From Kiloniellales bacterium (lineage in GTDB: Bacteria; Pseudomonadota; Alphaproteobacteria; Kiloniellales; JAKSBE01), in the NCBI GenBank assembly GCA_028282935.1, contig JANQGU010000085.1:1-40016 (forward strand): 40,016 nt of DNA, written 5' to 3'. The position numbers and the translations under genes are program-made. Shown here one piece after another: positions 9,437 to 19,654 of the stretch. Position 1 is the stretch's first letter. Each line of letters begins with the position of its first letter. The notes beneath the pieces were generated by a model. That model did not search any database. It was not told the DNA's origin and saw nothing but the letters and a program-made list of their open reading frames with translations.

Positions 9437-10798
9437 ATGACCGAAGGCGCGGCGGAGCCGGAGCGGCAGGCCGGCACCTGGAACCGGCGGGTGGTCCTGC
9501 TCGCCGGGCCGATCATCCTCTCGAACCTTTCGACGCCGCTGCTGGGCGCGGTCGACACCGCCGTGGTCGGCCACCTGCCGGACCCCACGGCCATCGGCGG
9601 GGTCGGCATCGGCGCCGTGGTCTTCAGCTTCCTGTTCTGGGGCTTCGGCTTCCTGAGGATGGGGACGACCGGCTTCACCGCCCAGGCCTTCGGCGCCGGC
9701 GATGCCGCGGAGCTGCGGGTCGCGCTGCTGCGCCCGCTGTTGCTGGGCCTGGCGCTCGGCGGCCTGATCGTCCTGCTGCAGGGCCCGATCGGCGCCCTTG
9801 CCTTCGGGCTCTTCCACGCCAGCGAGGCGGTCGAGGCCCAGGCCGGCGCCTACTTCGAGGTCCGCATCTGGGCGGCGCCCGCGACCCTGGTGAACTACGC
9901 CATCCTCGGCTGGCTGCTGGGCCTGCGGCGCGCGAACACGGCGCTGGTCCTGCAGGTCGTCCTGAACGGGCTCAACATCGTATTGGACCTGCTCTTCGTG
10001 GTCGGGCTGGGCTGGGACATCCGGGGCGTCGCCCTGGCCAGCGTGATCGCGGAGATCGCCGCCGCGCTCCTGGGCCTGGCGATCGTGCTGCGGCTGCTGC
10101 GGGGCCGGCCGGAGGCGGCCGCGGGGATCTGGCAACGGGTCTGGCAGCGCGACGGCCTGGTCGCCCTGGTCCGGGTGAACTTCGACCTCCTGGTCCGGAC
10201 CCTGACCCTGATCTTCGCCTTCGCCTACTTCACCGACCAGAGCGCGCGCCTGGGCGACCTGCCCCTGGCCGGCAATGCGATCCTGCTGCAGTTCCAGAAG
10301 TTCATCGCCTATGGCCTGGACGGCTTCGCCCACGCCGCCGAGATCCTGGCCGGCAACGCCAAGGGCGCGGGCGACCGCCGCGGCTTCCGCCAGGCGGTGA
10401 GGGTCTGCGGCCTTTGGGGCCTGGGCCTGGCCGCGGTCCTGGCCACCCTGCTGCTGGCCGGCGGACCGGGCCTGATCGCCCTCTTCACCAGCCACCAGGA
10501 CGTCCGCGAGATGGCGCAGGCCTTCCTGCCCTGGCTCGTCCTTTCGCCGCTGGTCTCGGTCTGGAGCTTCCTGCTGGACGGGATCTTCATCGGCACCACC
10601 CGCAGCGCCGCGCTGCGCAACGCCATGCTTCTGTCCCTGGCGGTCTATCTGCCGGCTTGCTGGCTGCTGGTGCCCTGGCTCGGCAACCACGGACTCTGGC
10701 TGGCCTTGACCCTGTTCATGGCCGCGCGGGCGGTGACGCTGGGGTGCTTCTACCCGGCCCTGGACCGGTCGATCGGCGCGCGGCCAGCGGCATCCTGA
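9437..10798 (+). CDS. MATE family efflux transporter (DinF-like)
   Basis: Multi-pass; LAGPIILSNLSTPLLGAVDTAVVGHL N-terminus typical of MATE/DinF. Confidence 0.88.
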   Translation: MTEGAAEPERQAGTWNRRVVLLAGPIILSNLSTPLLGAVDTAVVGHLPDPTAIGGVGIGAVVFSFLFWGFGFLRMGTTGFTAQAFGAGDAAELRVALLRPLLLGLALGGLIVLLQGPIGALAFGLFHASEAVEAQAGAYFEVRIWAAPATLVNYAILGWLLGLRRANTALVLQVVLNGLNIVLDLLFVVGLGWDIRGVALASVIAEIAAALLGLAIVLRLLRGRPEAAAGIWQRVWQRDGLVALVRVNFDLLVRTLTLIFAFAYFTDQSARLGDLPLAGNAILLQFQKFIAYGLDGFAHAAEILAGNAKGAGDRRGFRQAVRVCGLWGLGLAAVLATLLLAGGPGLIALFTSHQDVREMAQAFLPWLVLSPLVSVWSFLLDGIFIGTTRSAALRNAMLLSLAVYLPACWLLVPWLGNHGLWLALTLFMAARAVTLGCFYPALDRSIGARPAAS

Positions 10799-10825
10799 TC
10801 CGCCGGCGTTCCCAAACCGTAGAGG
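10796..10825 (+). promoter_or_regulatory. candidate ECF/RpoE-type promoter TGATCC-N18-TAGAGG upstream of DUF6134 operon
   Basis: TGATCC at 10796-10801, 18-nt spacer, TAGAGG at 10820-10825; same -35 and spacing as the two elements between 18240 and 18327. Confidence 0.6.
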
Positions 10826-10857
10826 TTCGGGTAGTCTTGCTTGGATTGAGGGCGGTC

Positions 10858-11544
10858 ATGTCGCAGAAACTCCAGATTCCCCGCAGAGACCTCCTGGCCC
10901 TGCTGGCCGCCGGGGCCGTCCTGGCGCCGAGCGCGGGCCTGCGCGCCGCCCTGACGCCCGGCGAGCGGATCGCCTTCGACGTCCTGCGCGAGGATTCTTC
11001 GATCGGAAGCCATGTCATCGGCTTCCGGAGAGACGGCGGCGACCTGCTGGTCGACATCGACATCGCACTCGAGGTCCGCTTCGCCTTCCTCACCCTCTAC
11101 CGCTACCGCCATAGCAACCGGGAGCGCTGGCGCGACGGCCGGCTGATCAGCCTGAACAGCGAGACCGACGACGACGGCAGCGCCTACTGGGTGCGCGCCG
11201 AGGCCACGGGCGACGGCCTGCGGGTCGAAGGCAGCGACGGCCGCTACACCGCGCCGGCCGGGACCCTGCCGACCAGCTACTGGAACCCGCGCACCGTCGC
11301 GCAGCGGCAGCTCCTGGACAGCCAGCACGGCCGCCTGCTGTCGGTCGAGGTCCGGCCGCAGGGCCAGGACGACCTGCTGTTGCCGCTGGGCCTGCATAGC
11401 GCCCGGCAATACCGCATCGCCGGCGACCTGGAGCTGGACCTCTGGTACGGCCCGCGGGGCGAGTGGCTGAAGCTGGCCTTCGAGGCCAAGGGCGCCGAGA
11501 TCGAGTACAGCGCGCTCGAAACGGCCAACCCGAGTCGTCTTTGA
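10858..11544 (+). CDS. DUF6134-like exported protein
   Basis: N-terminal signal-like segment (RRDLLALLAAGAVLAPSAGLRAA); beta-rich body; ATG 10858 in frame with ORF track. Confidence 0.65.
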   Translation: MSQKLQIPRRDLLALLAAGAVLAPSAGLRAALTPGERIAFDVLREDSSIGSHVIGFRRDGGDLLVDIDIALEVRFAFLTLYRYRHSNRERWRDGRLISLNSETDDDGSAYWVRAEATGDGLRVEGSDGRYTAPAGTLPTSYWNPRTVAQRQLLDSQHGRLLSVEVRPQGQDDLLLPLGLHSARQYRIAGDLELDLWYGPRGEWLKLAFEAKGAEIEYSALETANPSRL

Positions 11545-12311
11545 ACCGAGCCAAACCGCAGGACCGGGTCTGGATCACGGGCGCCAGCAGCGGCCTGGGC
11601 CGGGCCCTGGCGCTGAAGATGGCGTCCGAGGGCTGGCGGGTCGCGGCCTCGGCACGCAGCCAGGACCAGCTTCAGGCGGTCGCGGCCCTGGCCTCGGCCT
11701 TTCCGGGCAGCATCGAGGCCTTTCCCCTCGACGTGACGGACCGGGATGCGGTCCAGGAGACGGTCGCCCGGATCCTCGAGGACTTCGGACCGCCCGACCT
11801 GGTGGTCCTGAACGCCGGCACCCACAAGCCGACCCCGGCCGCCAGGCTCTCGACCAAGGACTTCCGCCAGCTGGTCGAGCTCAACCTCATGGGTACGGTG
11901 CATTGCCTGGAGGCGGTCCTGCCGCCGCTGCGGCGGCGCCGGGAAGGACAGATCGCCATCGTCGCCTCGCTGGCCGGCTACGTCGGGCTGCCGCTGGCCG
12001 GCGCCTATGGCATGACCAAGGCCGGCCTGATCAACCTGGCCGAGTCGCTGGAGCCCGAGCTGCGGGCCGAGGGCGTCACCCTGCAGGTCGTCAACCCGGG
12101 CTTCGTCAAGACGCCGCTGACCGACCGCAATCCCTTCCACATGCCTTTCCTGATGGACGTCGAGTCGGCGGCGACGGCCTTCTACCGCGGCTTGCAGTCC
12201 GGCGGCTTCGAGATCGTCTTCCCGCGGCGCTTCGCCTACCTTCTCAAGCTCCTCCGGCTCCTGCCCCACCCCCTGGCCCTGGCGATCACCCGCCGCCTGC
12301 TGCCGAAGTGA
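11541..12311 (+). CDS. SDR family oxidoreductase
   Basis: VWITGASSGLGRALA, VVLNAGT, YGMTKAGL (YxxxK); TTG start overlaps preceding TGA. Confidence 0.9.
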   Translation: MNRAKPQDRVWITGASSGLGRALALKMASEGWRVAASARSQDQLQAVAALASAFPGSIEAFPLDVTDRDAVQETVARILEDFGPPDLVVLNAGTHKPTPAARLSTKDFRQLVELNLMGTVHCLEAVLPPLRRRREGQIAIVASLAGYVGLPLAGAYGMTKAGLINLAESLEPELRAEGVTLQVVNPGFVKTPLTDRNPFHMPFLMDVESAATAFYRGLQSGGFEIVFPRRFAYLLKLLRLLPHPLALAITRRLLPK

Positions 12312-12790
12312 TGAAGCAGGAGCGCGCCGCGGCCTATGTCGCCTTCCTGGAGGCGCTGACGGCGGCGCGCCTGCCGGAGCTCTCCGCCTACCTGGCGCCG
12401 CAGGCCCGCTTCGTGGACCCCTTCAACGACGTGACCGGCCGGGAAGCCGTGATCCGGGTCTTCACCAAGATCTTCGAGGACCTGACCGAGGTCGACTTCG
12501 CGGGCCGGGACTTGGCATGCAGCGAGGGGGCCTGCAGCGAGGGGGCCTGCAGCGAGGGGGCCTGCAGCGAGGGGGCCTGCTTCTTCGCCTGGACCCTGCG
12601 CGGCCGTCTGCGCGGCAGCGGCAGGGCGATCACCTTCGAGGGCGTCACCGAGCTGCGCCTCGACGACCAGGGCCGGATCGCCGCCCACATCGACCACTGG
12701 GACGCGGCGAGCCAGCTCTACGCCCGGATGCCGGTTCTGGGATCGCTGTTGGCGGTCTTGCGGCGGCGGCTGGGCGCCAAGGGAGAATGA
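12311..12790 (+). CDS. nuclear transport factor 2-like (SnoaL-type) protein with Cys-rich tandem insert
   Basis: RFVDPFNDVTGREAVIRVFTKIFEDL and HIDHWDAASQLYARMPVLG; 1-nt stop/start overlap with SDR gene. Confidence 0.82.
   Translation: MKQERAAAYVAFLEALTAARLPELSAYLAPQARFVDPFNDVTGREAVIRVFTKIFEDLTEVDFAGRDLACSEGACSEGACSEGACSEGACFFAWTLRGRLRGSGRAITFEGVTELRLDDQGRIAAHIDHWDAASQLYARMPVLGSLLAVLRRRLGAKGE
12518..12580 (+). repeat. perfect in-frame tandem repeat, 4 x 15 bp (TGCAGCGAGGGGGCC) + TGC, encoding (CSEGA)4C
   Basis: Direct reading: tgcagcgagggggcc repeated four times then tgc. Confidence 0.97.
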
Positions 12791-12794
12791 CCGG

Positions 12795-13373
12795 CTACTC
12801 GGCCGCGACTATGGCGGGTTCCGCGGGAAACCTGGCCGAGCGAGCCGGCGGCTTGGTGAAGACGATGGTCACGTCGCCGAGCTTGAGGCCGAACTTGGTG
12901 ATCTCGGCCCGGTTGATGATCACCTGGTCGGCCTGCAGGAACATCCAGTCGTCGAAGTCGACGTTCCAGGTCGAGTCGCCGACCTTGAGCGCCAGGCGAT
13001 AGCGCCAGTTCAGCACGTTGCCGTAGACCTTGCCGGCCGCGGGGCCGATGACGTCCTCGGCCCGCCCCTCGTAGCTGTGCGGCCCGGTCTTGCGGATCGT
13101 CCAGATCCGCTGCTGGGTCTCGCCGTCGTCGTAGAGGAAGTCCTCCTTCAGGACCAGGGTCTCGCCGTCCCAGGTGCCTTCGATATCGACCTCGAACTGC
13201 CGGCGCAGGTCGCCGAAGCGGTCGACGAAGATGCCATGGGCCCGCGTCTCGCCGGCGAAATACTCCTCCAGCAGCAGCTTCGGCTCACGTCCTGCGAAGT
13301 CCTCGGGTTTCATACCACCGCATCCGGTCAAGGTTAGGGTTAAGGCCAGCAAGGCCGCCATATGCCGTATCAT
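12795..13373 (-). CDS. DUF3833 family lipoprotein
   Basis: Lipobox-like LTLTLTGCGG; GTWDGETLVLKEDFLYDDGETQQRIWTI; start chosen at MIRHMAALL. Confidence 0.75.
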   Translation of the reverse strand: MIRHMAALLALTLTLTGCGGMKPEDFAGREPKLLLEEYFAGETRAHGIFVDRFGDLRRQFEVDIEGTWDGETLVLKEDFLYDDGETQQRIWTIRKTGPHSYEGRAEDVIGPAAGKVYGNVLNWRYRLALKVGDSTWNVDFDDWMFLQADQVIINRAEITKFGLKLGDVTIVFTKPPARSARFPAEPAIVAAE

Positions 13374-13380
13374 GGGACTT

Positions 13381-14721
13381 CTACGCCGCGAGGCCCGACT
13401 TGGATGCCTGCCGATCGGCAATCCGGCGCCGCAGCCGGTCGTGCCGGGCCGCGGTGATGGGATAGCCGCGCATCAGGGCGATGCTGGCCAGCTTGAAGGC
13501 CACCGGGACCAGGCTGTAGAGCGCCGCCAGAGCGAAGAGCGGCAGCTCTCCGCCGCCTCCGGGGGAGGCCTCGAAGCCGGCCAGATCGAGCAGCGGGAAG
13601 GCGATCCCGACCGCCAGCGCCAGGGCCAGCTTGGTGCCCATGCCCCAGATCGCGAAGTAGAGCCCGGCCCGCTCCCGCCCGCTGCGCAGGCGGTCGAGAT
13701 CGATCACGTCGGCCTGCATCGAGGGCGGCAGCACGAGGTCGGCCCCCAGGGCCAGGCCCGTGAGCACGCAAACCAGGAAGAACCAGGCGCCGTCGCCGGG
13801 GCCGAGCAGCGGCACGCAGACGAAGACGGCGCAGGCCAGCAGCATGGCGCCGATCCAGACCCGGTGCTTGTCGAAGGGCCGCGTCAGCCGGAGCCAGAGC
13901 GGAACCGAGAGGATGCCGCAGAGGAAGTAGGTCAGCAGGAAAGCGCCGCTGCTGGCCTTGGCGTCCAGGCCGAACTCGGCGAAGAGCAGGAACAGGGTCG
14001 CCGGCAGGCCGTTGGCGATCCCGTTGAGAAAGTAGGCCAGGATCAGCCGCCGGAAGGGCCCGTTGGACCGCAGCAGGCCCAGGCTGCGGCGCCAGGGCAG
14101 GGCCGCGGTCGACCTGGGGGCCGGTTCCGGCACCAGGGTCAGGGCCAGCGTCAGGGCGACCGGCAGCGACACCAGCAGGATCCAGAACAGCATCTCCAGG
14201 GCCCGGCCCCGGTCCTCGCCGAAGGCCGCCGGCAGGGCCGCGGCCAGGATCGTGCCGACGACCACGAAGACCTCGCGCGCCGCCGAGACCCGGCTGCGGC
14301 CGTGATAGTCCACGGTCAGCTCGGCGCCCCAGGCGCTGTAGGGCAGGAGCACCATGGTCCCGCCCAGGGTCAGGATGGCGACCCAGAGCAGCAGATAGGG
14401 CAAGCTCGCGCCGGGTGCCGGCAGGAAGAGGAAGTAGGCGCTGACCAGGAGCAAGGGCGCGCCGGCCAGCATCCAGGGCCGGCGCCGGCCGAAACGGCTC
14501 CGGGTGCGGTCCGACAGGGACCCGATCAGGGGATCCGTGAAGACGTCCCAGATCCGCGTGGCCGTCAGGACGGCGGCGACCGCCGCGAAGCCGAGCCCGA
14601 GGTCAGCGGCGTAGAAGGTCGGCAGGTAGACGTAGAGCGGCAGCAGCAGCGCCGCCAGCGGCAGGCCAGGCAGACCGTAGGCCGTCAGCCGTAGCAGCGA
14701 GGACGCCGCCGCGCGCTCCAT
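13381..14721 (-). CDS. MFS transporter (GPH sugar:cation symporter-like)
   Basis: 12-TM pattern; RIWDVFTDPLIGSLSDRTRSRFGRRRPWML. Confidence 0.88.
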   Translation of the reverse strand: MERAAASSLLRLTAYGLPGLPLAALLLPLYVYLPTFYAADLGLGFAAVAAVLTATRIWDVFTDPLIGSLSDRTRSRFGRRRPWMLAGAPLLLVSAYFLFLPAPGASLPYLLLWVAILTLGGTMVLLPYSAWGAELTVDYHGRSRVSAAREVFVVVGTILAAALPAAFGEDRGRALEMLFWILLVSLPVALTLALTLVPEPAPRSTAALPWRRSLGLLRSNGPFRRLILAYFLNGIANGLPATLFLLFAEFGLDAKASSGAFLLTYFLCGILSVPLWLRLTRPFDKHRVWIGAMLLACAVFVCVPLLGPGDGAWFFLVCVLTGLALGADLVLPPSMQADVIDLDRLRSGRERAGLYFAIWGMGTKLALALAVGIAFPLLDLAGFEASPGGGGELPLFALAALYSLVPVAFKLASIALMRGYPITAARHDRLRRRIADRQASKSGLAA

Positions 14722-14757
14722 GCGCCGTCTCCTTCATCGTCTTCGCCGCCGGCATCT

Positions 14758-15963
14758 TCAGGGCCGGCGCAAGGCCATCTGCAGGACGTCGATCCGGCCG
14801 GCGCGGAACCCGGCCTCGCAGTAGGCCAGGTAGTAGCGCCACATCCGCTGGAAGCGCTCGTCGAAGCCGAGCCGGCCGATCTCGGGCCAGGCCTCGCAGA
14901 ACCGCTGGTGCCACAGGGCCAGGGTGCGGGCGTAGTGGGTGCCGTAGCCCCGGTCGGCCAGCCAGGCGAGCCCGGCGCCCTGGGCCCGCTCGACCAGGGC
15001 CCCGCGCGGCGGCAGAACGCCGCCCGGGAAGATGTAGCGCTGGATGAAGTCGGCGCTGCGCCGGTAGCTCGGCCAGACGTCCTCGGCGATGGTGATCACC
15101 TGCAGCGCCGCCGTGCCGCCCGGCCGCAGCACGCCGCTCAGCTTGCGGAAGAAGGGGTCCCAGTAGCGCTCGCCCACGGCCTCGAACATCTCGATCGAGA
15201 CGACCCGGTCGAAGACGCCCTGGGTATCGCGATAGTCCTGGAAGCGGACTTCGACCTTGTCCTGCAGGCCCTCGGCGGCGATCTGCGCCTGGACGTGCGC
15301 GTACTGCTCCTGCGAGATGGTCAGCGCGGTCACGCGGCAGCCGAGGCGCTTGGCGGCATAGAGGGCAAAGCCGCCCCAGCCGCAGCCGATCTCCAGCACG
15401 TGATCGCCCGCGCTCAGCCCGCCCAGCGCGGCCAGGCTCGCGTACTTGTTGCTCTGGGCCGCTTCCAGCGGCTGATCGGCCTTGTCGAAGACCGCCGAGG
15501 AGTAGGTCAGGCTGCGGTCCAGCCAGGCCGAATAGAAGCTGTTGCCCAGGTCGTAGTGCTGGGAAATGTTGCGCCGCGCGCCGCGCCTGGAGTTCGGCCT
15601 CAGGACGTGGAACAGGCGGTGCAGGCCGGCCAGCATCGAGGTCCGGGTCAGGAAGTTGCCCCAGGCGTCCTCGTTGCGGGCCCCCAGCTCCAGAAGGGCC
15701 GCCAGGTCGGGCGTCTCGAACTCGCCGGCGAGGTAGCCTTCCGCGAAGCCGTTGCTGCCGTTGGTCAACATGCGGCGCAGGACCCTGCGGTGGCGGAACT
15801 CGATCTCGGCCTGCGGCCCCGGCTCCGGGCCCTGGAAGTCGTGCTCGCTGCCGTCCGGCAGGATCACCCGGATACGGCCGTAGCGGGTCCGCTCCAGCAC
15901 CCGGAACATCAGACCGAAGTGGCCGGTGCCGCCGCGCGCGGCCGGTTTGGCTGGTATCTCCAT
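14758..15963 (-). CDS. cyclopropane-fatty-acyl-phospholipid synthase family SAM methyltransferase
   Basis: ISQHYDLGNSFYSAWLDRSLTYSSAVF, VLEIGCGWGGFALYAA, SIEMFEAVGERYWDPFF, YIFPGG. Confidence 0.93.
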   Translation of the reverse strand: MEIPAKPAARGGTGHFGLMFRVLERTRYGRIRVILPDGSEHDFQGPEPGPQAEIEFRHRRVLRRMLTNGSNGFAEGYLAGEFETPDLAALLELGARNEDAWGNFLTRTSMLAGLHRLFHVLRPNSRRGARRNISQHYDLGNSFYSAWLDRSLTYSSAVFDKADQPLEAAQSNKYASLAALGGLSAGDHVLEIGCGWGGFALYAAKRLGCRVTALTISQEQYAHVQAQIAAEGLQDKVEVRFQDYRDTQGVFDRVVSIEMFEAVGERYWDPFFRKLSGVLRPGGTAALQVITIAEDVWPSYRRSADFIQRYIFPGGVLPPRGALVERAQGAGLAWLADRGYGTHYARTLALWHQRFCEAWPEIGRLGFDERFQRMWRYYLAYCEAGFRAGRIDVLQMALRRP

Positions 15964-15978
15964 CTCCCCTGCTCCCCT

Positions 15979-16788
15979 CTACTCGGCCGGCAGCCGCGGA
16001 GCGGGCATTTCGAGGGAGACCGGCTCCCTCGGTGGCTGGGGACGACGGTGGTAGCGGGCCCCCTTTGCCCAAAGCCACAGCGCCTGCCAATGGATTGCGA
16101 GGACGATTTTGAAGGTGAGCAAGGGATAGAGCAACAGGGCGCGCGACAGGCTGCCGAGACCCAGCCGGGCGCCCCGGCCCGACCAGGTCGCGAGCAGGAT
16201 CTCGCCCTCCTTCACCGCCTGGCGGATCAGGACCGCGAGCCGCCGTCCCGGCGGCCGCAGGCGGAAGCGGTAGGACGCCGCCATCGGGATGAAGGGCGAG
16301 ACGTAGAAGCCCTTGTCGCAGGCCTGGTCGAAGGCCTCCTCCCCCGCCGGCGGCGCGGTCAGGGGGATCACGTAGCTGTGCTGCTGGCCGAAGGTGTTGC
16401 GGACCTCGTAGATCACGGCGCGCAGCTCGCCCTCGGCGCCGTGACAGAACCAAAGGGACAGCGGATTGAAGACATAGCCGAAGAGGCGCGGCAGGCAGAG
16501 CAGCTCGACCCGGCCGCCGCCCAGCTCGACGCCGGCCTCGGCGCAGAGCCGCTCGGCCCAGGGCTTCAGCGCGCTGCCGTCGCGGGGACCGTGGTCACGG
16601 TCGCGCAGGCTGAAGAGGTTCGCGCGGTTGTGGGAGAACAGCGGCAGCTCCCGGTCGAGCCGGCCGAGCTCGTCGAGGTCGAAGAGAAAGGCATAGACCC
16701 GGTAGGCGAAGCGGTGGCGGAAGGGCCGCAGCCGCTTGTGCATGACCCGGCCGAAGTAGATCCGAGATCTGAGGGCGGATGCCGGCAT
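15979..16788 (-). CDS. DUF1365 family protein
   Basis: IYFGRVMHKRLRPFRHRFAYRVYAFLFDLDEL; RLFGYVFNPLSLWFCHG. Confidence 0.88.
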   Translation of the reverse strand: MPASALRSRIYFGRVMHKRLRPFRHRFAYRVYAFLFDLDELGRLDRELPLFSHNRANLFSLRDRDHGPRDGSALKPWAERLCAEAGVELGGGRVELLCLPRLFGYVFNPLSLWFCHGAEGELRAVIYEVRNTFGQQHSYVIPLTAPPAGEEAFDQACDKGFYVSPFIPMAASYRFRLRPPGRRLAVLIRQAVKEGEILLATWSGRGARLGLGSLSRALLLYPLLTFKIVLAIHWQALWLWAKGARYHRRPQPPREPVSLEMPAPRLPAE

Positions 16789-16797
16789 CGCCCGCGC

Positions 16798-18129
16798 CTA
16801 CTCCGCCGCTTCCAGGGCCAGCACGGGCTGGACGGCGCGCCAGGCCGGGCTCGAGGTCCCCGCCTCTTCCGCCCAGGGCACGGCGGCGCCCAGCTCGGCC
16901 GCCACCTTGAAGCCGGCCTCCAGGCCGTCCTCGTGGAACCCATAGCCGCAGTAGGCGCCGCAGAACCAGGTCCGCTGCCCGCCCTGGATCCGATAGAGCG
17001 CGGCCTGGGCCTCCAGGGCCGCCTGGTCGAACTGCGGATGGGCGTAGCTGTAGCTGGCCAGCACCTTGTCCGGGTCGGGCCGCTGGATCGGATTGAGGCT
17101 CAGAAGCAGCGGCTCGCTGGTCTTCAGGTTCTGCAGCCGGTTCATCCAGTAGGTCACCGAGACCTTGCGGCCCCGCGCCTCGACCTCGCCGCCGAGGTAG
17201 TTCCAGCTCGCCCAGGCGCCGCGGCGGCGCGGCATCAGCTCGGGATCGCGGTGCAGCACCGCCAGGTTGTCCTCGTAGCCGAGCGCGCCCAGGGTCTCGG
17301 CCTCCTCACGGGTCGCGTCCGGGCCGAGGATGCGCAGGGCCTGGTCGCTGTGGCAGGCCAGAACAAGCTGATCGAAGCGCTCCTCGCCGCCAGCCTCGGT
17401 GGTTACGAAGACGCCCAGCGGCGTGCGCCGGCAGGCGACCACGGCCTGGTTGAGGCGGACCCGGTGCCGGAAGCTGTGGCTGAGCCGGCGCACGTACTCG
17501 CGGCTGCCGCCCTTGACCGTCATCCACTGCGGCCGGTTGGTGAGCAGCAGCAGGCCGTGGTTCTGGCAGAACTGGACGAAGGTGCGCGCCGGAAAGGATC
17601 GCATGTCGGACAGGGAGGTCGACCAGATCGCTGCCCCCATCGGCAGCAGGTGGTCGTTGACGAAGTCGTCGGAATAGTTGCCGGCCTCCAGGTAGGCGCC
17701 CAGGCTCGGGCCCTCTTCGGCCTCCTGCGTCAGCAGTTCCGGGGCCTCGCGGTAGAAGCGGAGGATATCGCGCAGCATGCGCCAGAACCTCGGCCGGCCC
17801 AGGTTGCTGGGCTGGGCCAGCAGGCCGGGAAGGTCGCCCTTGTACTCGAAGGCGCCCTGACCGAGCGACGCCGAGAAGGACATCTCGCTCTTCTCGGTCG
17901 GGACCTCGAGCTCCCGGAACAGGCGGGTCAGCTTCGGATAGGTCAGCTCGTTGTAGACGATGAACCCGGTGTCCACCGGAACCTGGCGTCCCCGGTCCAC
18001 GACCTCCACCGTGTGCGCGTGCCCGCCGAGGTAACCTTCGGCCTCGAAGACCGTGATTTCGTGCTGCTGATTGAGGGCCCAGGCCGCGCCGAGACCGGCG
18101 ATGCCACTACCAACGATGGCGATCTTCAT
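16798..18129 (-). CDS. FAD-dependent oxidoreductase (flavin amine oxidase-like)
   Basis: MKIAIVGSGIAGLGAAWAL dinucleotide-binding motif; VDTGFIVYNELTYPKLTRLF; TWFCGAYCGYGFHEDGLEAG. Confidence 0.9.
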   Translation of the reverse strand: MKIAIVGSGIAGLGAAWALNQQHEITVFEAEGYLGGHAHTVEVVDRGRQVPVDTGFIVYNELTYPKLTRLFRELEVPTEKSEMSFSASLGQGAFEYKGDLPGLLAQPSNLGRPRFWRMLRDILRFYREAPELLTQEAEEGPSLGAYLEAGNYSDDFVNDHLLPMGAAIWSTSLSDMRSFPARTFVQFCQNHGLLLLTNRPQWMTVKGGSREYVRRLSHSFRHRVRLNQAVVACRRTPLGVFVTTEAGGEERFDQLVLACHSDQALRILGPDATREEAETLGALGYEDNLAVLHRDPELMPRRRGAWASWNYLGGEVEARGRKVSVTYWMNRLQNLKTSEPLLLSLNPIQRPDPDKVLASYSYAHPQFDQAALEAQAALYRIQGGQRTWFCGAYCGYGFHEDGLEAGFKVAAELGAAVPWAEEAGTSSPAWRAVQPVLALEAAE

Positions 18130-18239
18130 ACGTTAACCAACTCCTGCCGGGGTCCCGTGAAAGCGGCCAAAGGGTCCTTGGCCCTGGATGTAAGTGCTGG
18201 ACCGAGGGCTCCGGGTTCACTCTCCAAACGCACTAAGGG

Positions 18240-18269
18240 TCGATACGTCAGGCACTTGGCACCGGATCA
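18240..18269 (-). promoter_or_regulatory. candidate RpoE-type promoter TGATCC-N18-TATCGA driving FAD-oxidoreductase operon
   Basis: Minus-strand TGATCC (18269-18264), 18 nt, TATCGA (18245-18240). Confidence 0.6.
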
Positions 18270-18297
18270 CCGCGCGGGCCGAGCGCGAAAAAAATGG

Positions 18298-18327
18298 TGA
18301 TCCGGGGGAGCGGCGGGCCCGTAGATA
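18298..18327 (+). promoter_or_regulatory. candidate autoregulated RpoE-type promoter TGATCC-N18-TAGATA upstream of sigma factor
   Basis: TGATCC 18298-18303, 18 nt, TAGATA 18322-18327; back-to-back with the minus-strand copy. Confidence 0.65.
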
Positions 18328-18425
18328 CTGGGAATGGAGGCCTTATGGTAGCAGGGGTTGAAGCAGTCGGGTCATCCAGCCGCCGTACGCTTGTAGGTGT
18401 CGCTGTGTTGCCCTTAGATAGCCGG

Positions 18426-19004
18426 ATGGGTTCGAACGCCAAAGTCGCTTCGCGCGCCGTCCCGGATGAGCTGAGCGAACTCTTGATCGCCGTCGCGGTG
18501 CATCGGGACCGCAAGGCCTTCATCAGGCTGTTTGAGCATTTTGGCCCGCGGGTCAAAAGCTATCTCAAGCGGCTGGGGGTGAACGACAGCGAGGCCGACG
18601 ATCTGATGCAGGAAGTCATGCTGACCGTTTGGCGTCGGGCCGAGCAGTTCGACCATCGAAAGGCGCGGGCGAGCACCTGGATCTTCACGATCACCCGGAA
18701 CAAGCGGATCGACGCGATCCGCAAGGAACGGCGGCCGGAGCTCGATCCCAACGACCCGGCCCTGGTGCCGGACCGTGACGACGATCCCTCCGAGGCCGTA
18801 TCGGCGAACGAGTGGCGCGCGGCGATCCGGAAGGCGATCGACGAGGTGCCGGAGGAACAGGCAAGACTGCTACGTATGTCGTTCTTTGAGGACAAAACCC
18901 ACGACGTGATCGCCAAGGAGCTCGACTTGCCGCTCGGCACGGTGAAGTCGCGGATCCGACTGGCGGTGGCGAAGTTGCGTCGTAGTCTGGAGGACTTGCG
19001 GTGA
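18426..19004 (+). CDS. rpoE: ECF RNA polymerase sigma factor, RpoE (ChrR-controlled group)
   Basis: Region 2 (VNDSEADDLMQEVMLTVWRRAEQFDHRKARASTWIFTITRNKRID) and region 4 (DVIAKELDLPLGTVKSRIRLAVAKLRRSL); start uncertain (18345 or 18426). Confidence 0.9.
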   Translation: MGSNAKVASRAVPDELSELLIAVAVHRDRKAFIRLFEHFGPRVKSYLKRLGVNDSEADDLMQEVMLTVWRRAEQFDHRKARASTWIFTITRNKRIDAIRKERRPELDPNDPALVPDRDDDPSEAVSANEWRAAIRKAIDEVPEEQARLLRMSFFEDKTHDVIAKELDLPLGTVKSRIRLAVAKLRRSLEDLR

Positions 19005-19654
19005 TGCCGCACCATCATCCCTCGGAAGAGATGCTGCTCGGCTATGCCGCCGGCAGCACGAGCGAGCCCCTGTCGCTGCTGATCGCGACGCACCTGGCGC
19101 TCTGTCCCGAGTGCCGGCGCAAGGTCGCCGCCTACGAGGCGCTTGGGGGCAAAGAGCTGGAAGTTGAGGCGCCGGCCATGCTGAGCAGCGACAGCCTGGT
19201 CAGCGTTCTGGATCGCCTGGACACAGCGGAAGAGCCGGCGATGGCGCCGCCGCGGCCCTCCGCCGAGGGCGACCTGCGGCTGCCGCGACCCCTGCGCGAC
19301 TACGTCGCCGGCTCTTTGGACAGCCTGGATTGGCATCAAAGGGGCGGTATCGCCGAGGCGAGCCTGCTGACGGAGCGCAGCGACTTCAAGACCCGCCTGA
19401 TGCGGATCAGGCCGAAGACCGCGATCCCGGAGCACAGCCACCACGGCTCGGAGTACACCCTGGTGCTGACCGGCGGCTTCAGCGACCACACCGGGCATTT
19501 CCTCCGCGGCGACGTCGCGATCGCCGATCCGGCGGTCCAGCACAGGCCGATCGCCGATGCCGGTGAGGACTGCGTCTGCCTGGCGGTCACCGATGCCCCC
19601 CTACGCTTCACCGGAACCATTGCGCGCCTGCTGAGTCCGCTGCTGCAGCGCTGA
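19001..19654 (+). CDS. chrR: ChrR family zinc-binding anti-sigma factor with C-terminal cupin
   Basis: HLALCPEC (HxxxCxxC) zinc anti-sigma motif; cupin PEHSHHGSEYTLVLTGGFSDHTGHFLRGD; overlaps sigma gene stop. Confidence 0.92.
   Translation: MMPHHHPSEEMLLGYAAGSTSEPLSLLIATHLALCPECRRKVAAYEALGGKELEVEAPAMLSSDSLVSVLDRLDTAEEPAMAPPRPSAEGDLRLPRPLRDYVAGSLDSLDWHQRGGIAEASLLTERSDFKTRLMRIRPKTAIPEHSHHGSEYTLVLTGGFSDHTGHFLRGDVAIADPAVQHRPIADAGEDCVCLAVTDAPLRFTGTIARLLSPLLQR

Follow-up and report, generated by a model that had tools for sequence, protein, structure and literature searches.

The 40,016-nucleotide stretch analysed here (the window; positions 1 to 40,016 of contig JANQGU010000085.1, assembly GCA_028282935.1) belongs to a Kiloniellales bacterium and carries genes for a predicted extracytoplasmic function (ECF) sigma factor, RpoE, and its anti-sigma factor, ChrR, together with two flanking operons and three promoter sites of one type. 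rpoE (18345..19004, + strand) encodes a protein with the two-domain ECF architecture (Pfam sigma70 r2 and r4), whose best solved structure was sigmaE of Rhodobacter sphaeroides (2q1z_A, E = 2.4e-43; next best 8e-17). Its start was placed at ATG 18345, which has GGAGG upstream and is conserved in the genus. chrR (19001..19654, + strand) encodes a zinc anti-sigma factor with a cupin domain (Pfam Cupin_7), which scored 210.6 bits against TIGR02451 (cut-off 124.5) and matched sigmaE–ChrR structures only (2z2s_B, E = 2e-51). The anti-sigma zinc ligands H6, H31, C35 and C38 were invariant in the alignment and have the residue numbers of R. sphaeroides. The cupin ligands H145, H147, E151 and H181 were also kept and invariant, those of R. 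sphaeroides ChrR being H141, H143, E147 and H177 (zinc ligands listed in PMC6852236). From these sequence and structure matches, RpoE and ChrR are assigned as an ECF11 pair.

Three sites in the window carry TGATCC-N16-CGTA. The first (18298..18323, + strand; CGTA followed by GATA) stands before rpoE–chrR in an autoregulatory position and is overlapped by the longest open reading frame (ORF) of rpoE, which starts at 18294. Back to back with it, with 28 bp between, lies the second (18269-18244, − strand; CGTA followed by TCGA), whose -10 element is ~110 bp upstream of the start of the first leftward gene. The third (10796..10821, + strand; CGTA followed by GAGG) precedes the rightward operon. 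The first-pass annotation had described three intergenic TGATCC-N18-TA promoters at these places. Their positions and strands were as it gave them, and its by-eye exclusion of other TGATCC hexamers was correct, as only three of the 34 hexamers on both strands have TA after exactly 18 nt. However, CG lies directly 5' of the TA in all three sites, so that the real -10 core is CGTA and the motif is better given with N16. Furthermore, the site at 10796 is not strictly intergenic, as its -35 element shares bases with the TGA stop codon (10796-10798) of the preceding MATE gene.

The leftward operon lies on the − strand and begins with a flavin adenine dinucleotide (FAD)-type amine-oxidase-like gene resembling ufaD (RSP_1091-type; 16798..18129; Pfam Amino_oxidase, 2.2e-18). 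This is followed by a ufaO-like DUF1365 gene (15979..16788; Pfam, 1.9e-79), a ufaM-like methyltransferase gene of the CFA/CMAS family (14758..15963; Pfam CMAS, 3.1e-85), an MFS/GPH-type transporter gene (13381..14721; Pfam MFS_2, 1.1e-79) and a gene for a DUF3833 lipoprotein (RSP_1088-type; 12795..13421; Pfam, 1e-66). RSP1091 is UfaD and RSP1090, which contains DUF1365, is UfaO; with the methyltransferase UfaM they yield furan fatty acids (PMC7380195). The window methyltransferase fell far under the NCBIfam cut-offs for cyclopropane fatty acid (CFA) synthase (257 against 600 and 248 against 400 bits), and these scores fit a putative UfaM-like role. Together, the gene families fit a furan fatty acid (ufaD-ufaO-ufaM) pathway, whose product would be 9M5-FuFA or methylated intermediates.

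The rightward operon, on the + strand, encodes a DUF6134 protein (10858..11544; Pfam PF19630, E = 2.5e-56), a short-chain dehydrogenase (SDR) of the RSP_1087 type found in the published core regulon table (11541..12311; Pfam adh_short, 2e-48; PMC5507510) and a SnoaL/NTF2-like protein (12311..12790; Pfam SnoaL_2, 2.6e-14). An N-terminal hydrophobic stretch suggests that the DUF6134 protein is exported, probably being secreted or periplasmic. Its AlphaFold2 model (21 homologues; mean predicted local distance difference test score, pLDDT, 89) had as best Foldseek match a Brucella DUF1849 protein (6NTR; E = 3e-6, template-modelling score ~0.57), and resembled VioE and LolA/LolB less closely. The model permits a guess, reasonable but no more than that, at a function in the envelope or in lipid binding; a literature search found no paper naming DUF6134. 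Within the SnoaL gene, window positions 12514-12580 hold 4.5 copies of a 15-bp tandem repeat peculiar to this species, and the encoded protein exceeds those of the two sister species by 15 residues (three ACSEG units).

Conservation and chance expectation of the promoter sites

We compared the sites across an order set of 63 genomes, 41 of which have a ChrR above the family cut-off, and a named set of 80 loci from Kiloniellales, Rhodospirillales and others, the closest being from a Kiloniellales metagenome-assembled genome (MAG) with 85% ChrR identity. In the order set, the exact N16-CGTA motif was found upstream of rpoE in 41/44 cases and of the linked FAD gene in 18/19. In the named set, the counts of which are not independent of these as some loci are the same contigs in both, TGATCY-N16-CGTA preceded rpoE in 65/79, the FAD gene in 30/41 and DUF6134 in 16/26, with 0 or 1 match at each of the other spacings compared (10-15 and 17-22). 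The first-pass annotation had staked its prediction on conservation in orthologous loci, and this held. The base after TGATCC was a purine in nearly all sites, and the ten-gene layout was the same in the fetched loci of relatives. Pelagibius marinus (L175), a cultured relative whose layout is much alike, has sites at rpoE–chrR, at the FAD operon and at an SDR operon. All three species of the genus have kept the DUF6134 site (one of them with TGATCT), as has L092, and it occurred with an altered first base in L076, L078 and L086. By comparative sequence, the three sites are predicted to be genuine conserved ECF11 promoters.

Some variation was seen in the sigma/anti-sigma pair itself. Two loci of one family of the order (L090 and L103, family f8) encode a ChrR without two cysteines of the anti-sigma domain. 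LAPES and LSPQS replace LCPxC in these proteins, so that their N-terminal zinc site has probably been altered or has disappeared. One sister species (G002) has a second ECF11 rpoE–chrR pair (L070, G002:C34:98950-100687), which has a site to itself and is accompanied by a divergently encoded small membrane protein; a homologue of this protein in the genome under study (G000, contig C226) has kept the ECF11 site and has no linked rpoE–chrR pair.

Chance expectation was estimated from 400 dinucleotide-preserving randomisations of the window. The three TGATCC-N18-TA sites compare with a mean of 0.20 per shuffle and the three TGATCC-N16-CGTA sites with a mean of 0.0075; no shuffle reached three of either. 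The genome-wide search proposed in the first-pass annotation had a divided outcome in this 5.2-Mb MAG (460 contigs, 81% complete). For TGATCC-N18-TA, 30 of the 428 matches at N14-22 fell at N18. As it was not enriched over other spacings and many matches lay within coding sequence, this looser motif was rejected as a genome-wide regulon predictor, and the signal therefore resides in the CGTA form and in position. TGATCC-N16-CGTA had 14 matches in the whole genome, compared to 0 for the reversed control, and at this rate the probability of three sites within 40 kb is ~2e-4.

Relation to known ECF11 systems and alternative readings

The first-pass annotation had likened the -35 element to that of the ChrR-linked ECF promoters of R. 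sphaeroides. The likeness is stronger than it stated, as the window sites equal the published ECF11 consensus letter for letter (PMC5507510, PMC5036791). Chromatin immunoprecipitation sequencing (ChIP-seq) of the RpoE-Rsp-type sigma factor of Pseudomonas syringae gave TGATCC-n16-CGTA (PMC5507510), the R. sphaeroides Pos19 promoter reads TGATCC(N15)GCGTA (PMC5036791) and Shewanella start sites map to TGATCC / CGTA elements (PMC4336711). The core regulon comprises an SDR, a lipoprotein, a hypothetical protein (RSP_1090), an FAD protein, phrB and cfaS (PMC5507510, citing Dufour 2008), and SDR, lipoprotein, DUF1365-type, FAD protein and cfa-like genes were all present at the window promoters.

The sigmaE–ChrR system of R. 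sphaeroides (RSP_1092-1093; RSP_1087-1091, RSP_2143-2144) has the same sigma/anti-sigma type, zinc ligands and promoter (TGATCC-N15-GCGTA being TGATCC-N16-CGTA), and its regulon has matching ufaD, ufaO, CFA/ufaM, lipoprotein and SDR families. In contrast to R. sphaeroides, the ufaM-like gene here shares an operon with ufaD and ufaO, and the SDR gene belongs, together with DUF6134 and SnoaL, to another operon. P. syringae (PSPTO_1043/1042; PMC5507510) shares the consensus and has SDR, RSP_1090-type, FAD and cfa genes in one locus; however, phrB heads the operon there and DUF6134 is unlisted. RpoE2–ChrR of Shewanella oneidensis (PMC4336711) uses the same TGATCC / CGTA elements for differing targets (pgpD, phr, cfa). 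Because promoter, core regulon and ufa genes all match published ECF11 work, the system is already known and it is the species and the arrangement that are new. The gene arrangement is of a known kind.

We are highly confident that this locus represents the core RpoE–ChrR (ECF11) stress regulon of the Kiloniellales bacterium, gathered in one place. Several points weigh against this. We infer both the transcription of the three operons by RpoE and, the host being a MAG, the inducing signal. phrB, in which the locus differs from R. sphaeroides, was neither present here nor recognised among the ORFs downstream of the exact matches in this 81% complete genome, in which no photolyase-directed search was made. 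Conservation is lower for the DUF6134 site than for its two counterparts, with 16/26 named loci rising to 19/26 when the first base is relaxed; L080 and L083 gave no match, and some relatives with DUF6134-SDR-SnoaL were without it in the searched stretch.

This last point, together with the overlap between the -35 element and the MATE stop codon, would suit a narrower regulon in which only rpoE–chrR and the FAD operon are RpoE targets, the DUF6134 site is chance or decayed, and its operon is driven otherwise, for example by read-through from MATE. Such a restriction is improbable given that each of the three species of the genus has the site, that 16-19 of the 26 named loci carry it with precisely N16 (no other spacing gave a match), and that the chance expectation of N16-CGTA for the whole window is 0.0075. 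Related promoters can be common to different ECF groups, and the specificity for RpoE is here predicted from the motif, so that these sites might be read by a different ECF sigma factor encoded in this genome, with rpoE–chrR merely a co-target. We regard this as more improbable still, since the motif lies directly upstream of rpoE in nearly all ECF11 loci and the P. syringae ChIP-seq recovered the same consensus with a sigma factor of this type (PMC5507510). Finally, chance clustering of a short motif, to which TGATCC-N18-TA without genome-wide enrichment might point, is opposed by the shuffles and the genome rate and is already refuted, because the sites keep their places and their spacing from family to family.

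Sites beyond the window and a candidate small RNA

The first-pass annotation had the sigma factor controlling itself and eight flanking genes in a compact regulon. The count of eight flanking genes is right; the regulon, however, is not confined to one locus, because conserved exact sites precede genes elsewhere in the genome. There were 11 further exact TGATCC-N16-CGTA matches outside the window, which were assessed by where they lie and by whether they recur in either of two sister species (G001 and G002). The exact motif was found upstream of a fasciclin lipoprotein gene and of an AraC-family regulator gene (L016, L133, L118) in all three species of the genus, the regulator being a possible second tier of the response. 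In two of the three species it preceded genes for a PDZ-domain ChaN-like protein and for a membrane protein of ~102 residues, and in this genome only it preceded genes for a second DUF3833 and a DUF3429 protein.

A further site, at G000:C35:9512 (L003:1501-1640), is followed after 9 nt by a conserved stretch that is a candidate RpoE-dependent small RNA of ~90 nt (G000:C35 ~9547-9640). Counterparts exist in both sister species (motif positions G001:C134:19542 and G002:C43:17697; L117, L138). The stretch has no plausible gene and is far more conserved than its flanks. Two of its hairpins are GACAG...CTGTC and CGCGCC...GGCGCG; a third, strong and GC-rich, has a short T-rich tail and would be the terminator. 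There was no Rfam match at gathering or permissive thresholds, covariation was uninformative with three sequences, and strong matches across the order and class were confined to the three genomes of the genus. Weak matches in the order and class were inspected and rejected, as they were without the promoter and looked like other RNAs or chance. R. sphaeroides Pos19 (PMC5036791), a small RNA behind a perfect RpoE promoter, provides a precedent, although it is 219 nt and coding. We consider the odds about even that this genus has, within its ECF11 regulon, a non-coding small RNA acting in trans and that, in many related loci, DUF6134 with its DUF1849-like fold forms a so far unrecognised branch of the singlet-oxygen response directed at the envelope.

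In several relatives, the motif also occurred upstream of a sigma-32-type (rpoH) gene just 3' of chrR (L085:10298, L090:10388, L101:10252, L103:10240 and L113:10268), and at L092:1291 such a motif-preceded gene is divergent from DUF6134 (coordinates with chrR on the + strand). A sigmaE→RpoHII cascade is known in R. sphaeroides (PMC6852236), and these sites are predicted to be its cis-linked version. Within the genus under study a sigmaE→RpoH link was rejected, with no NGATC-N16-GTA within ~1.5 kb of the rpoH-like genes of the three species (G000, G001 and G002), a further difference from R. sphaeroides.

Predicted stress response and its significance

In the unstressed cell, the zinc anti-sigma factor ChrR, a cytoplasmic protein, would hold RpoE. 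On exposure to singlet oxygen or organic peroxides ChrR would be lost, as in R. sphaeroides, where both induce the response in this way (PMC6852236). RpoE, once free, would bring RNA polymerase to the TGATCC-N16-CGTA sites, from which transcription would start at three points. Transcription of rpoE–chrR would provide positive autoregulation as well as renewed inhibitor. Leftward transcription of the ufaD-ufaO-ufaM-like, transporter and DUF3833 genes would support synthesis of furan or methylated fatty acids. This may also feed back on ChrR turnover, as in R. sphaeroides, where furan fatty acid synthesis genes are required for that turnover under singlet oxygen (PMC6852236). Rightward transcription of DUF6134-SDR-SnoaL would probably serve envelope or lipid handling.

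With promoter spacing kept to the base across families, these loci provide comparative data of exceptional clarity on a system that is already known. DUF6134, a frequent predicted ECF11 target with an envelope-type predicted fold, would be a new addition to the regulon; it and the candidate small RNA are the least documented elements. Moreover, several relatives have rpoH behind an ECF11 promoter in this very locus, which makes it possible to test how the sigmaE→RpoHII cascade evolved.

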